Part shown: positions 47,055 to 56,478 of the stretch, in pieces
Position numbering within the stretch: position 1 is the first letter of the stretch
Layout: each line of letters begins with the position of its first letter
Origin: Cellulomonas iranensis NBRC 101100 = JCM 18110
Lineage (GTDB): Bacteria > Actinomycetota > Actinomycetes > Actinomycetales > Cellulomonadaceae
Direction: 5' to 3'
Length of the DNA: 64,000 nucleotides
Assembly (NCBI RefSeq): GCF_001552375.1
Contig: NZ_BCRB01000009.1
Span: forward strand, 1 to 64,000
Notes under the pieces: model-generated
The model's input: only the letters and a program-made list of their open reading frames with translations
The model's database searches: none
What the model was told of the DNA's origin: nothing
Made by a program: the position numbers and the translations under genes

Positions 47055-47084
47055 TGGTGCGCCCGAAAGGATTCGAACCTTCGA
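47055..47084 (-). other. 3' tRNA fragment: attachment site at the left end of the integrated element
   Basis: Read on the minus strand, the segment gives a T-arm (GAAGG, loop TTCGAAT, CCTTT), the acceptor 3' half CGGGCGC, discriminator A and an encoded CCA. There is no matching D-arm, anticodon arm or GCGCCCG 5' half within the next 100 bp, so only the 3' end of a tRNA gene is present. The acceptor sequence resembles actinobacterial tRNA-Arg. The integrase gene starts about 150 bp to the right. Confidence 0.75.
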
Positions 47085-47230
47085 TGAGTGCATGCAGGAG
47101 CACGCGGGATGCGGCAGGTTTACAGCGTTGACCTGCGAAGATGTAGACATCGCTCGGCAAGAGGTGGCAGGCTGCGGCAGCGCGCGGAACGTTCTTCTGG
47201 CACGCAACTGGCACGACCGCGAACGAGGTG

Positions 47231-48328
47231 ATGATGGGCCGGCGAGACTTCGGATCGGTGCGCAAGCTCCCCTCGGGGCGGTACCAAGCTCGCTACCAGC
47301 TGCCTGGCGGATCGACCTCGGTCACGGCGCCGGACACGTTCCGCACGAAGATCGAGGCCACGGCGTGGCTCGCGAAGCAGCGGGCTGCGATCGGCGAGGG
47401 TCGGATCAACCCCGCCGCCGTCACCACGACGCTCGGCGAGTACGCCGACTCCTGGCTCCAGGCCCGGGACCTCAAGGCCACGACCAGGACGCTCTACCGG
47501 CGGCAGTACGCGAAGGCCATCGAGCCGCACTGGGGCGCGATCCGGCTCGGCGACATCACCCCTGCTGCTGTGTCGGCCTGGTACTCCACCCTCCTGGTCG
47601 AGCGGCCGACAGAGCGTGCGCACGTATACGCGCTGTTCCGGACGATCCTCAACACGGCGTGGCGTGACGACCTCATCGCCGCGAACCCGTGCCGCGTGCA
47701 GGGCGGAGGTGCCGTGAAGGGGCGCTCCAAGGCGATCCGGCCGGCGTCGCTCGCGGAGCTCGAGGCCCTCGTGGCCGCGCTCGACGAGAGGTGGCGGCCG
47801 CTCGTCATGCTCGGCGCCTGGTGCGCCCTGCGCTTCGGCGAGGCGACCGAGCTGCGCCGCGGTGACATCGACCTTGCCGCCGGGCTCGTGCGCGTTCGCC
47901 GGGGCGTCACATGGATGACAGGTGAGCCGCACGTCGACACCCCCAAGAGCGCAGCCGGGCTCCGCGACGTTGCGATCCCTCCGCACCTCACTCCGATGCT
48001 GAGCACGCACCTGGCCGATCATGTCGCCGCGGGTCGACGTGCGCTGCTGTTCCCCCTCGAGCCCGGGGGACTCGTGCAGGTCTCGCCTCATCGGTTCCGG
48101 CCACTGTTCGCCGCCGCTCGTTCCGCGGCTGGGCGCGAGGACCTCACGTTCCATGCGCTGCGACACACGGGGGCTGTGCTCGCCGCCGCGACGGGAGCCA
48201 CGGTCGCCGAGCTCATGGCTCGCCTCGGACACGCGACGCCCGCCATGGCGATGCGGTACCAGCACGCCGCGGCAGACCGCGATCGTGTCATCGCGGACGC
48301 GCTGTCGCGCATGATCAACGAAGGGTAG
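47231..48328 (+). CDS. int: Tyrosine recombinase (phage-type integrase)
   Basis: The 365-residue integrase has an N-terminal arm-binding region (DFGSVRKLPSGRYQARY), a SAM-like core-binding domain (about 70-165) and a catalytic domain. Catalytic residues visible are Arg in CALRFGEATEL, His-x-x-Arg in HALRHTG and the nucleophile Tyr in MRYQHAA. It would catalyse insertion at the tRNA 3' end beside it. Starts at 47228, 47231 and 47234 are all possible behind GAGG; 47231 is used. Upstream, inverted repeats (GATGT/ACATC at 47140-47151 and GCAGGT/ACCTGC at 47114-47136) may be arm or regulator sites. Confidence 0.93.
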   Translation: MMGRRDFGSVRKLPSGRYQARYQLPGGSTSVTAPDTFRTKIEATAWLAKQRAAIGEGRINPAAVTTTLGEYADSWLQARDLKATTRTLYRRQYAKAIEPHWGAIRLGDITPAAVSAWYSTLLVERPTERAHVYALFRTILNTAWRDDLIAANPCRVQGGGAVKGRSKAIRPASLAELEALVAALDERWRPLVMLGAWCALRFGEATELRRGDIDLAAGLVRVRRGVTWMTGEPHVDTPKSAAGLRDVAIPPHLTPMLSTHLADHVAAGRRALLFPLEPGGLVQVSPHRFRPLFAAARSAAGREDLTFHALRHTGAVLAAATGATVAELMARLGHATPAMAMRYQHAAADRDRVIADALSRMINEG

Positions 48329-48524
48329 TCAGAGTGGACTGAGGTGATGCGCAGTCACCTCGTTGATGTAGCAAGAATTGCTGCTACACGTAGCCACAGC
48401 CTTTCGGGTGAATCCGCAAGCTGCGACGTGTCGCACATTGACTTGCGGCCACTTGCAGTCCAAGAATAATCCCAAGGCGGCGATCGGCCGCTCAGCACCT
48501 CGACGACGCGGGAGCAGCAAGACC

Positions 48525-48737
48525 ATGAATTCGAGCCCTCGGCAGCCGCTCCTCACAGTGGCTGACGTCGCTCGGCAACTCGGCGTGCACCCCGAGACGG
48601 CCCGCAAACTGGCACGTCAGGGCCGCATCCGGGCCGCGAAGTTCGGCGGTCGGACATCCCCGTACCGCTTCCGTCAGTCTGCGGTGGACGAGTTCATCGC
48701 CATGCAGGAAGCGCGAATCCGGCGAGGTGCCGTGTAG
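48525..48737 (+). CDS. Small HTH protein, excisionase/MerR-like
   Basis: The 70-residue protein has one winged HTH of the helix_turn_helix 17/excisionase type. The pattern TVADVARQLGVHPETARKLAR, then GRIRAAKFGG and YRFRQSAVDEFI, is typical of Xis and small actinophage regulators. It lies directly after the integrase and probably directs excision or regulates the integrase. ATG at 48525 follows GGAGCAG. The 197 bp between int and this gene contain an inverted repeat TGTAGCA/TGCTACA (48367-48388) that could be its target. Confidence 0.8.
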   Translation: MNSSPRQPLLTVADVARQLGVHPETARKLARQGRIRAAKFGGRTSPYRFRQSAVDEFIAMQEARIRRGAV

Positions 48738-50874: not shown

Positions 50875-51248
50875 CGGTGACGATTGACGACTTCGACGAC
50901 TTCAACCCGCACTGGCCGCAGCCGCCAGCCTGGTTCACCACAGCAGCTGATTCCGCGCTGGCGTCGTGGCTGCGCGACGAGCTCACACCGTGCGGACACG
51001 ACGCCGACACCCCCTTCATCGACACGGGACGAGCTGCCCTCCTCTGCGGCGCGTGCATGGTCCAGCACGTCGCCCACCACCTGGTCCTGAAGGGTGCCGC
51101 CAATCCCAGCGCACCCCGAGCCTTGGCCGGACAGTCCTGCGGCGCGTGCAACGAGCGGGCCACCCGCTTGCCCTACACCCTGTTCCGTCGCCTCAACGTC
51201 TTCGTCGTCATCGGCGCCTGCGACCGCCACGGGCAGGCCGACGCGTGA
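50871..51248 (+). CDS. Hypothetical Cys-rich protein (125 aa), possible zinc binding
   Basis: ATG at 50871 overlaps the previous stop (ATGA), and the stop overlaps the next start (GTGA). An in-frame ATG at 50829 is less likely because it lies inside the previous gene. Cysteines in TPCGHD, LLCGACM, QSCGAC and GACDRHG, with nearby His, form CxxC-like pairs suited to binding one or two zinc ions. It is encoded directly before the RepA-like ATPase and may act with it on DNA; no family is recognised. Confidence 0.72.
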   Translation: MTVTIDDFDDFNPHWPQPPAWFTTAADSALASWLRDELTPCGHDADTPFIDTGRAALLCGACMVQHVAHHLVLKGAANPSAPRALAGQSCGACNERATRLPYTLFRRLNVFVVIGACDRHGQADA

Positions 51249-52519
51249 CCACCACAGGCCACGACACACCCACCCGAGACCCCGCCGCGCTGCCGACCTC
51301 CTGGCAGCCCGCCGACCTCGCCGACACGGTTGCCGGGCTCCTCGGCGGAACGATCGCCCGCCCGGCGCCGACCATCGGGTACGTCACGAACGGGCTGGCG
51401 TTGTTCTACCCCGGGAAGGTCAACGGCATCGCTGGCGAGTCCGGATCGGGCAAGTCCTGGACTGCGCTCCTCGTCTGCGCCCAGCAGATCACCGACGGCG
51501 AGCACTCCCTCTACATCGACTTCGAGGACGACGCCGCCTCGATCGTCGCGCGACTCCTCGACATGGGCGCCGCCCCCGAGGCCATCGTGGCGCGCTTCCA
51601 CTACGTGCACCCCCACGAGCGCTTCGACGTCGTCGCCACCGAAGCCGTCGCCGCGCTCCTCGACACCCACCACCCCACGGTCGCCGTCATCGACTCCACC
51701 GGCGAAGCGCTCTCCCTCGACGGCCTGCGACCCAACGAGGACGACGACGTCGCTCGCTGGTTCCGCAACCTCCCCGCCGGGATGGCCGCACGCGGACCCG
51801 CCGTCATCGTCCTCGACCACGTCACTAAGGCCGACGACTCCGGGCTCTGGCCCATCGGCTCCCAGCGCAAGCGCGCCGCGATCTCCGGCGCCCAGTACAT
51901 GCAGCGCGCCGGACGCCCCTTCGCCAAGGGTCACCCCGGCGAAGCCGTCCTCATCTGCGCGAAGGACCGTCACGGCACCTACCGGATCAACCAGCGTGTC
52001 GCCCGACTGACCGTCGACCCCGATGGCGACCAGGTCACCGTCCAGCTCGTCACGGCCGACAACCCCACGGCCGACGCTGCCGGCTTCCGTCCCACCACGC
52101 TCATGAAGCGCGTCAGCGACGCACTCGCGGCTGCACCCGAGCCCTTGACCACCCGAGCCATCCGAGAGCGCGTCAACGGCAAGAGCACCGCCATCGCCGC
52201 CGCCACCGACGCCCTCATCCGCGAGGGCAACGTCACCACCGCCCCCGGACCCCGCGGAGCGACCCTCCATCACCTCCACCACCCATACGACGACGGGAAC
52301 CACTCGACCCCCGCCACCGGCTCCGAACGACCGGTGACTGGTTCCCGTCTTAGGGACGGGAAACGGGAACCAGTCACCCCACCGGTTCCCGGAACCGGTG
52401 GGGAACCAGTCAGGAACCAGGAACCAGGAGCCTGCTGCCCCACCTGCGCCGAACCCCTTAACACCCCAGGAGCAACCACACGATGCCGACCACACCACAC
52501 ACCCGGAGGAGCCCCATGA
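51245..52519 (+). CDS. RecA-like AAA ATPase of the RepA/AAA_25 type (replicative helicase candidate)
   Basis: The 424-residue protein begins at GTG 51245 (4-bp overlap). The RecA-like core spans about residues 30-270. It has Walker A GESGSGKS, an acidic strand SLYIDFEDD, the Walker B-like strand VAVIDST and a PAVIVLDHVTK strand typical of RepA-type hexameric helicases. A C-terminal winged-helix segment (LTTRAIRERVNGKSTAIAAATDALI) follows. A low-complexity tail encoded by repeat DNA ends in a Cys pair (CCPTCAEPL). It is the most likely replication initiator or helicase of the element. Iteron-like repeats occur inside its own 3' end. Confidence 0.83.
   Translation: MTTTGHDTPTRDPAALPTSWQPADLADTVAGLLGGTIARPAPTIGYVTNGLALFYPGKVNGIAGESGSGKSWTALLVCAQQITDGEHSLYIDFEDDAASIVARLLDMGAAPEAIVARFHYVHPHERFDVVATEAVAALLDTHHPTVAVIDSTGEALSLDGLRPNEDDDVARWFRNLPAGMAARGPAVIVLDHVTKADDSGLWPIGSQRKRAAISGAQYMQRAGRPFAKGHPGEAVLICAKDRHGTYRINQRVARLTVDPDGDQVTVQLVTADNPTADAAGFRPTTLMKRVSDALAAAPEPLTTRAIRERVNGKSTAIAAATDALIREGNVTTAPGPRGATLHHLHHPYDDGNHSTPATGSERPVTGSRLRDGKREPVTPPVPGTGGEPVRNQEPGACCPTCAEPLNTPGATTRCRPHHTPGGAP
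52333..52427. repeat. Dense inverted and direct repeats inside the 3' end of the RepA-like gene
   Basis: A perfect 16-bp inverted repeat has arms at 52333-52348 and 52363-52378, with a competing inner hairpin (52342-52349 with 52355-52362). A 13-bp-arm palindrome with one central base spans 52377-52403. The 12-mer GGGAACCAGTCA occurs at 52365 and 52401 and inverted at 52335. GGAACCA is repeated at 52413 and 52420. Confidence 0.9.
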
Positions 52520-53571: not shown

Positions 53572-53603
53572 GGGAGGTGCGCAGTGCACCCGTTCGGCGT
53601 CTC

Positions 53604-53634
53604 CCTGTACAGGAAACGACCGTTTACTGTAAAC
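53604..53634. promoter_or_regulatory. Two palindromes at the serine recombinase start
   Basis: CCTGTACAGG (53604-53613, perfect) and GTTTAC-T-GTAAAC (53622-53634) lie immediately before ATG 53637. They are unusually A+T-rich for the region. They could be an operator or a recombination site for the recombinase that follows. Confidence 0.5.
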
Positions 53635-53636
53635 GC

Positions 53637-54332
53637 ATGGCCCGGCGACCACGCTCCCAACTCCACAGCCCGTGCATCGCGTACGTCCGCGTGAGTACGA
53701 CGGAGCAGGCTGACAGTGGAGCCGGGCTCGATGCCCAGCGTGCCGCGATCGAGGCGCACGCAGCCCGTGCGGGACTGTCGATCGACGGGTGGCATGTCGA
53801 CGCCGGGGTGTCGGGGTCCGTCGCCCCGGCTGACCGGCCCGCGCTCGCTGAGGCCCTCGTGGCCCTGGGTGCGGCGCGGTCCGGTGTGCTGCTCGTCGCG
53901 AAGTCGGACCGCATCGCCCGGCGCACCCTCGACCTCCTGGGGCTCTGCGCGCTCGCCGAGCGTCAGGGTTGGTCCATCGTCGCCGTGGATGGGACCGTCG
54001 ACCAGACGACGGCGCACGGCCGGTTCATGACCACCGTCATGGCCGGGGCGGCGGAGCTCGAGCGAGACCTCATACGGGCCCGGACCCGTGACGCGCTCGC
54101 GGCCAAGCGCGCTGCGGGTGTCCGTCTGGGCCGGCCGGTCACTCTTCCGGCTGAGGTTCGTGCGCGGGTAGCGTCGGAGCGAGTTGGTGGCGCCACGTTG
54201 CAGGCGATCGCTGACGGCCTCAACGCCGACCAGATCCACACTGCGAGGGGCGGTGCGCGTTGGTACGCCTCGACGGTCGCGAGCGTCCTGAAGTCGCTCG
54301 ACCACGATGCTGTGACCAGGGAGGCCCGTTGA
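53637..54332 (+). CDS. Small serine recombinase (resolvase/invertase family)
   Basis: The 231-residue protein has an N-terminal resolvase catalytic domain. The nucleophile Ser lies in AYVRVSTTEQ, and the active-site arginines in KSDRIARRTLDLL and ELERDLIRARTRD. A C-terminal HTH for DNA recognition follows (TLQAIADGLNADQIHTA). Its length fits small resolvases and invertases rather than large serine integrases. ATG at 53637 directly follows two palindromes. It may resolve multimers, invert a segment, or mark a second mobile unit inside the element. Confidence 0.9.
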   Translation: MARRPRSQLHSPCIAYVRVSTTEQADSGAGLDAQRAAIEAHAARAGLSIDGWHVDAGVSGSVAPADRPALAEALVALGAARSGVLLVAKSDRIARRTLDLLGLCALAERQGWSIVAVDGTVDQTTAHGRFMTTVMAGAAELERDLIRARTRDALAAKRAAGVRLGRPVTLPAEVRARVASERVGGATLQAIADGLNADQIHTARGGARWYASTVASVLKSLDHDAVTREAR

Positions 54333-55616: not shown

Positions 55617-55809
55617 GGAGCGCTCCTCGCGTCGGGCGGGTCTCTCCCTGTTCGTCGGCTTCGTCACCGAGTGCCTTGAGGGGATGCCCGCGAGAGGTGA
55701 GCGATATCGCGCGACGGTTCGGCTCTGTGTAGCGCGGTTACCGATCCGCCTGTCGCGGCGACTCGGGCAGGCTGGCACACCACGGGGCAACCTCCGCCCC
55801 GTGGAGACG

Positions 55810-56478
55810 ATGCGCGAGATCCCGCTCAGCTCGATGAGCGTCCACCCGGGGCACCCGCGGTCCGACCTCGGCAACCTCGACGCCCTCGTCGCAGACGTCG
55901 CCGCGCACGGAGTCATCGAGCCGGTGATCGTCGCGCCCGGGACACGTTGGCTCTCGACTGGCAAGTGCGCTGACTGCGGGCTCCGACGGCGACGCCACGG
56001 CAGCGGGGTCGTCGAGCAGCACGAGAGCTCAGGGCGTCCGTGCCCGGGGAGCGGCGAGCCGGCCGCGGACGACTGGGTCCTGCTCGCGGGTCGACGCCGT
56101 GCGATGGCCGCAACCATGGCCTGCCTCGAGACTGTGCCCGCCATCGTGCGGGCCGACCTGAGGTCCGACGCCGACCGGTTGAGCCTGATAGCGAGGGAGA
56201 ACCTGCACCGGCTCGACCTGACGCCTCTCGAGGTCGCAAGGCTGTTCGGCGCGCTGACGGCCGCCGGGCTGACGTCGACACGGATCAGTCAGCGGGTGCG
56301 CGTCCCGAAGGCGTTCGTCGACCGGCGACTGCGCCTCCTCGACCTGCCGAGCGGGGTGTGGGGCGCGCTGAGGCGGGGGAGGGTCGGCCTGGCGGCGGCC
56401 GAAGAGGTGGTTGGGCTCGAAGCCAACCCGCGGCGTCGTGGATGGGGTGTTGCGGAACGGTGCGACGTTCGGCCCTAG
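55810..56478 (+). CDS. ParB/Spo0J-like protein with a cysteine-rich insertion
   Basis: The 222-residue protein has an N-terminal ParB/sulfiredoxin-like domain (IPLSSMSVHPGHPR and AGRRRAMAA, the family's G-x-RR box). A KorB/HTH part follows (ARENLHRLDLTPLEVARLFG and STRISQRVRVPKAFVDRRLRLLDLP). About 35 residues with CADC and a further Cys (GRPCPGS) are inserted before the RR box, possibly a zinc site. No ParA gene is adjacent. It may partition a replicating form of the element or regulate transcription. ATG at 55810 is used; GTG at 55801 is an alternative, and neither has a strong SD. Confidence 0.8.
   Translation: MREIPLSSMSVHPGHPRSDLGNLDALVADVAAHGVIEPVIVAPGTRWLSTGKCADCGLRRRRHGSGVVEQHESSGRPCPGSGEPAADDWVLLAGRRRAMAATMACLETVPAIVRADLRSDADRLSLIARENLHRLDLTPLEVARLFGALTAAGLTSTRISQRVRVPKAFVDRRLRLLDLPSGVWGALRRGRVGLAAAEEVVGLEANPRRRGWGVAERCDVRP

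Follow-up and report, generated by a model that had tools for sequence, protein, structure and literature searches.

An iteron cluster at positions 52292-52427 of the window, by which we mean the whole 64,000-nucleotide stretch of Cellulomonas iranensis DNA analyzed here, very probably acts as the replication origin for the integrated element that carries it, and the product of the gene in which it lies would be the initiator of that element. The original prediction had proposed that an excisable element has a plasmid-like origin within its initiator gene, bound by the ATPase that this gene encodes, and comparison of sequences favors that proposal. We favor the origin reading because the cluster, though variable in sequence, keeps its place at the 3' end of the ATPase gene in elements that are otherwise unrelated, because replication domains are found in ATPase relatives, and because a natural plasmid bears the module while the element itself has an intact att pair.

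The candidate initiator gene and its predicted domains

The initiator-helicase candidate is an AAA_25 ATPase gene on the forward strand (51245-52519). Its open frame runs from 50966 to 52519, and GTG 51245, which overlaps the upstream stop, was taken as the start and is probably correct. The protein matches PF13481 (AAA_25) with 38.7 bits against a gathering score of 27, its Pfam matches are AAA_25, KaiC and AAA_16 only, and the GK of its Walker A motif is invariant across 25 aligned sequences. In the predicted model, residues 36-276 (51350-52072, forward strand) form a RecA/KaiC-fold ATPase domain with pLDDT mostly above 85. The best PDB match of this domain model was KaiC (Z 22.2, 2.7 A over 213 residues), and a fold search with the full model returned KaiC and RAD51. 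Residues 278-351 (52076-52297, forward strand), modeled separately with a mean pLDDT of 88.9, form a predicted winged-helix domain whose nearest folds are MarR, Fur and Zalpha domains (Z 9-10.6). The tail after the winged helix has low model confidence and is not conserved in sequence, and the iterons sit in the DNA coding for this tail, just after the winged-helix segment. Database annotations of such ATPases are vague ('AAA family ATPase', 'RadB-like', 'DNA primase'), and the MinS1 paper speaks of chaperone-like functions (PMC8876498).

The repeat cluster and its tests against chance and coding constraint

Every repeat that the original prediction had described in this gene is present. The arms of the 16-bp perfect inverted repeat lie at 52333-52348 and 52363-52378, are 100% complementary and enclose a 14-nt loop. 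The competing inner hairpin is CCCGTC-ttagg-GACGGG at 52344-52360, which, as read from the sequence, would be a core flanked by inverted iterons, with a TA core also occurring in relatives. The 13-bp-arm palindrome at 52377-52403 (arms 52377-52389 and 52391-52403, 100% complementary, 1-nt spacer) consists of two iterons placed head to head, GGTTCC at 52384 and GGAACC at 52391. The three copies of the 12-mer GGGAACCAGTCA are found in both orientations, at 52365-52376 and 52401-52412 on the forward strand and at 52335-52346 on the reverse strand. The cluster extends somewhat beyond the 52333-52427 originally given for it: an outer iteron GACGGGAACCACTC occupies 52292-52305 on the forward strand, with an 83% copy of the 12-mer at 52295-52306. 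At the other end, two forward-strand iterons, GGAACCA GGAACCA, fill 52413-52427 (units at 52413 and 52420). In all, the cluster holds 8 GGAACC/GGTTCC units in both orientations, spread over all three reading frames and both strands, and these 8 copies within 52280-52432 compare with 31 over the 64-kb window.

The cluster has an 8-mer repeat score of 32, and the top-scoring 150-nt repeat windows of the entire 64 kb are this cluster. Synonymous recoding with the codon usage of the element (n=2000) gave a mean score of 4.2 and a maximum of 18, with none of the 2000 reaching 32, while shuffling of codon order (n=2000) gave a mean of 1.3 and a maximum of 9. A perfect 16-nt arm was attained in 1 of 500 synonymous recodings and in 0 of 500 codon shuffles. 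Folded as single-stranded DNA, the cluster has a z of -4.98, and 0 of 200 shuffles folded equally well. Since recoding reached at most 18 against the observed 32, the encoded protein does not explain the repeats, and the constraint acts at the level of DNA. It is barely credible that the cluster is a mobile repeat or that it arose by chance, as low-complexity DNA in a tail that evolves quickly. The tail past the winged helix is indeed unconserved and modeled with low confidence, but the recoding and shuffle tests fail to reproduce the cluster. The 3.97-Mb genome holds no second copy, the matches being the locus itself and its own palindrome only. Moreover, clusters of different sequence recur at the same place in relatives, an argument that holds unless the recurrence is an artefact of locus choice.

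The carrier element

The cluster is carried by a 19.1-kb element that is bounded by exact 29-bp repeats and integrated in tRNA-Arg (CCG). The left att core lies at 47056-47084, and its exact repeat, at positions 66162-66190 of the contig (C9), lies in the 3' end of the tRNA-Arg CCG gene. A tyrosine integrase (47228-48328, forward strand; PF00589, E 2.2e-15; phrog_1, E 1.5e-63) is encoded beside an excisionase-like HTH_17 protein (48378-48737, forward strand; PF12728, E 3.9e-14; phrog_66). Together, the integrase, the xis-like gene and the intact pair of att repeats suggest that the element can excise. In addition to the tyrosine integrase, a serine recombinase with a Resolvase domain is encoded at 53577-54332 of the window, and tblastn located relatives of it in L020, L046 and the plasmid pKRAD02. 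A ParB-like protein is encoded at 55735-56478, 3.2 kb from the cluster. The element also encodes a tape-measure protein and, directly after it, a large terminase subunit. No capsid or portal protein was recognized among the element proteins scanned, and the element is for this reason regarded as satellite-like or as a decayed prophage.

Position of the cluster in relatives of the ATPase

The first nine relatives of the ATPase came from viral contigs. In 8 of their loci (all but L007) the sequence was read through, and 7 of these 8 have at this position a repeat cluster of their own, different in sequence, the remaining one (L011) being a locus without a cluster. A blind 8-mer repeat scan, with 200 dinucleotide-preserving shuffles per locus, was run over the locus of each relative. 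The 3' end of the ATPase gene was the strongest repeat spot of the locus in 41 of 60 loci, and in 33 of 50 clusters when loci were grouped at 70% identity, a grouping beyond which loci of common descent are still not independent. The 3'-end repeat score exceeded all 200 shuffles in 45 of the 60. Half of the loci (30/60) were gathered after the hypothesis had been formed, and among these the 3' end was the top spot in 18 and above all shuffles in 20. The original prediction had proposed to check the conservation of the repeats in related elements; in this in silico comparison the relatives have not kept the precise sequence but have an equivalent cluster in its stead.

The set of 60 leaves out the window's own copies (L001, L002, L012, L039, L069) and its downstream stretch (L068), two loci in which a contig end cuts the gene (L007, L031), and one whose match covers only residues 19-150 (L033). 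Also left out were weak partial matches within the genus (L013-L015) and duplicates or refetches (L064-L067, L070, L071, L073, L074, L078, L081, L082).

The 3' end was not the top spot in 19 of the 60 loci and not beyond all shuffles in 15. Distant relatives are among these misses (L011, L034-L037, L060, L063, L077). Of two closer relatives, L047 gave no cluster in the scan, and L045 was missed by the scan and has a cluster visible by eye only. Five loci (L021, L032, L040, L056, L058) have a strong 3' cluster but a higher-scoring spot elsewhere. One family (L051, L053, L055, L057) is without the C-terminal winged helix and has no 3' cluster, and in three of its four members a cluster lies at the 5' end of the ATPase gene. 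We rejected the idea that the repeats of this family follow a separate winged-helix gene, as the clusters are 5' of the ATPase gene in three of the four and no upstream winged-helix gene was shown. L020 has a different C-terminal end and yet retains the 3' cluster. Clusters at the 5' end were observed at 2501-2750 of L064, 2651-2900 of L065 (on its reverse complement) and 2576-2825 of L066, where the ATPase has a different C-terminal end. In L064 and L066, a small Cys-containing protein is encoded directly upstream of the ATPase gene with the 5' cluster.

Iteron anatomy and the core across lineages

The iteron units vary by lineage and include CCTCGTCCC, CCGTTCCCC, CCCTGCC, GGTGTCC, GGACCGGTCC and AAAATCACG. 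The last of these is A-rich and replaces the usual G+C-rich iterons in two genomes of one genus (L054, L056), where it is still located 3'. A common plan can be recognized, in which direct iterons come first and a short pyrimidine-TA core then typically has two iterons on one side and two, inverted, on the other. The commonest 6-mer is present in a median of 10 and up to 17 copies, and its commonest same-strand spacing is 10-11 bp. In 23 of 37 lineages, the best gapped palindrome around the end of the gene has TA within its spacer or next to it, where shuffles would lead one to expect 3.9 (sd 1.8). This test used one locus per 70% cluster and excluded 15 of the 60 loci, namely the 14 without a cluster beyond all shuffles and L076, whose score was reached by 1 of 200 shuffles.

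Clusters of binding sites can also be regulatory, and the repeats might be an operator on which the ATPase or another regulator of the element controls downstream transcription, with replication starting elsewhere. The downstream genes do follow the ATPase gene closely, and the predicted winged-helix fold resembles the MarR and Fur repressors. We nevertheless consider an operator improbable. In most relatives the cluster is at the end of the gene, not its start, and one 6-mer can be present in as many as 17 copies. The precedents of phage-inducible islands and SCCmec, compared below, place origins exactly here. No sigma-70-like promoter was found near the cluster, a point to be weighed with the fact that actinobacterial promoters may not match the sigma-70 pattern.

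In the 29 loci for which a core was assigned, 23 by script and 6 (L003, L009, L021, L042, L046, L048) from second-ranked or tied palindromes chosen by hand, the core lies 98-258 bp past the wing start of the winged helix (sd 45) and between -177 and +198 relative to the stop codon (sd 93). The core thus keeps its distance from the wing better than that from the stop, so that the winged-helix codons are what the cluster is tied to, and in the window it is inside the gene because the stop codon there falls late. These distances also bear on the proposal that the cluster is an RNA hairpin or a transcription terminator closing the ATPase gene. Strong hairpins do exist in the cluster, and TTCG or short loops are found in relatives L038, L050 and L059, but in the window, L008, L016, L049, L075 and pKRAD02 the core precedes the stop by 72-177 nt, and termination there would cut off the gene. 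A scan gave no terminator-like site, and the direct repeats outside the hairpin would be left unexplained. We hold such a role to be highly unlikely. The TTCG of L038, L050 and L059, which represent three lineages, is contained in the loop of the core palindrome.

No clear AT-rich opening region was detected: the minimum GC of 30-bp stretches around the cluster has a mean of 0.45, and that of comparable windows 0.49. A DNA unwinding element was accordingly rejected as a component of the cluster. Across 41 loci (820 pairs), winged-helix similarity and iteron similarity have a partial rank correlation of 0.27 given ATPase identity. This value was reached by 0 of 2000 label permutations, a permutation that ignores shared ancestry, and exceptions occur in both directions (L042 and L059, for example). 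The correlation hints weakly that winged helix and iterons may co-evolve.

Replication domains in relatives and natural plasmids

Several relatives of the ATPase are associated with replication domains. The relative in phage MinS1 contains a DnaB N-terminal domain (PF00772, E 2.1e-20), Prim-Pol domains are found in the relatives that L008 and phage Hendrix encode, and in L021 a Prim-Pol gene (E 2.7e-34) lies directly upstream of the ATPase gene. The DnaB N-domain of the MinS1 relative speaks indirectly for hexameric helicase activity, which the AAA_25 ATPase may possess. The contig of L021, titled NODE_421_length_7210_cov_2943.61, is given a very high coverage by this title and holds Prim-Pol, ATPase and iterons within 7.2 kb. 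It is a possible multicopy replicon, which we do not count as evidence given that the coverage figure comes from a single contig; no exact end overlap was found for this contig.

Among 72,556 plasmids, two carry a relative of the ATPase. One of them, pKRAD02 of Kineococcus radiotolerans (PMC2587704), is a natural circular 12.9-kb replicon with the ATPase-cluster module. The ATPase relative is its sole replication-like protein in a Pfam analysis of 11 of the 16 annotated proteins. The cluster of pKRAD02 lies in the gene and uses the GGGAACC unit as in the window, and 9 of the 12 GGGAACC/GGTTCCC copies on the plasmid are inside it. The cluster is also present on the other plasmid, p-XQ-29-C of Streptomyces griseoaurantiacus. 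Another of its genes, which had no match in Pfam or NCBIfam, looks by eye like a rolling-circle Rep and has a corresponding motif. For this reason p-XQ-29-C was rejected as a sole-initiator case and is not decisive.

A separate tandem GTGACCGCC array was observed in pKRAD02 on the parA side (about 10890-10970 of L080), away from the GGGAACC cluster, and is possibly centromere-like. The original prediction had also allowed for binding of the cluster in the window by the ParB-like protein, which is encoded 3.2 kb away, and parS arrays are indeed repeats. This part of the prediction found no support. In 0 of 76 locus records (flanks of about 1.5-10 kb, some records overlapping) does the ATPase have a homologue of the element's ParB-like protein in its neighborhood, while the clusters persist, and pKRAD02 has its GTGACCGCC array apart from the cluster. 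A centromere-like site thus has very little probability.

Proposed mechanism and significance

Taking the cluster as an origin, we infer winged-helix binding, ring assembly, core opening and origin activity in the following form. The C-terminal winged helix of the ATPase would bind the iterons, and the RecA/KaiC-fold domains would form rings on both inverted sets of iterons. The rings would open, unwind or thread the short core between the sets, and replication would begin after excision of the element.

Beyond the window, the evidence inclines us, with some reservation, to propose that phages, integrated elements and small plasmids of actinobacteria share a widespread class of replicon that has so far gone without a name. 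In its members a single protein would be both initiator and helicase, with a RecA/KaiC-fold motor and a winged helix at its C terminus, and the iterons would stand head to head on either side of a pyrimidine-TA core located at a fixed distance past the winged-helix codons. The class would combine the origin layout of phage-inducible islands with an unrelated motor, so that this layout would have arisen or spread more than once. In a literature search of journals available without subscription, no paper was recognized as describing iterons with this ATPase. If the proposal is true, many phages, integrated elements and plasmids gain a predictable origin and initiator, and the claimed uniqueness of the island-type origin layout becomes testable. 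Vectors for actinobacteria could then be built on such compact replicons, and the specificity of recognition could be studied on the many winged helices that nature has paired with iterons.

Comparison with known systems

As in phage lambda O, the iterons of the window lie within the initiator coding sequence. Lambda O is not known to be an ATPase. Its DNA-binding domain is N-terminal, whereas the protein described here is an ATPase with a predicted C-terminal DNA-binding domain, and the iterons here come after that domain, a winged helix, and lie in opposite orientations on the two sides of a core. The lambda O gene origin is mentioned in PMC7157519, a paper on mycobacteriophage RepA origins. 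These resemble the present system as actinobacterial prophage replicons whose origin lies within the rep gene or next to it, but their RepA is of a different family with an N-terminal HTH, and the authors report no repeats in the region they examined (PMC7157519).

Two plasmid systems described in PMC4234260 share other features with ours. In pRN1 (ORF904), as in the candidate helicases here, a C-terminal winged helix is present, sometimes with Prim-Pol, and the origin of pRN1 lies just 3' of the gene, variable in sequence and with its structure kept; unlike the present system, pRN1 relies on a helicase of the SF3 type, and its 100-nt stem-loop has no iterons (PMC4234260). RSF1010 RepA was absent among the fold-search matches listed, which excludes nothing. 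The hexameric helicase of RSF1010 has the RecA fold. In RSF1010 RepA/RepC/oriV, as here, a hexameric helicase would act at an iteron origin, but iteron binding and helicase reside in separate RSF1010 proteins, while one polypeptide would combine them here (PMC4234260).

The phage-inducible islands provide the closest layout. In these islands the origin is immediately 3' of rep and has two iteron sets, a layout that PMC6092414 terms unique to them. According to PMC7581432, the C-terminal domain of SaPI and SCCmec helicases binds the origin, and that of SCCmec Cch2 binds repeats downstream of its own gene. The likeness to PICI/SaPI in placing the putative origin directly 3' of the DNA-binding end of the initiator is one of position only (PMC6092414, PMC7581432). 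Further likenesses are the two iteron sets around a center, in the window and in relatives, the initiator with a C-terminal DNA-binding domain (here predicted), and the small, integrase-bearing carrier. The differences from these systems are an AAA_25 RecA/KaiC-fold ATPase here in place of a DUF927 or D5/Primase_Cterm helicase, a 5-14-nt TA core in place of an AT-rich center, and iterons that here can lie within the gene. With its unrelated motor and no AT-rich center, the ATPase-cluster system is not a member of the PICI/SaPI family, and the present set is a candidate exception to the rule that this origin layout belongs to islands alone.
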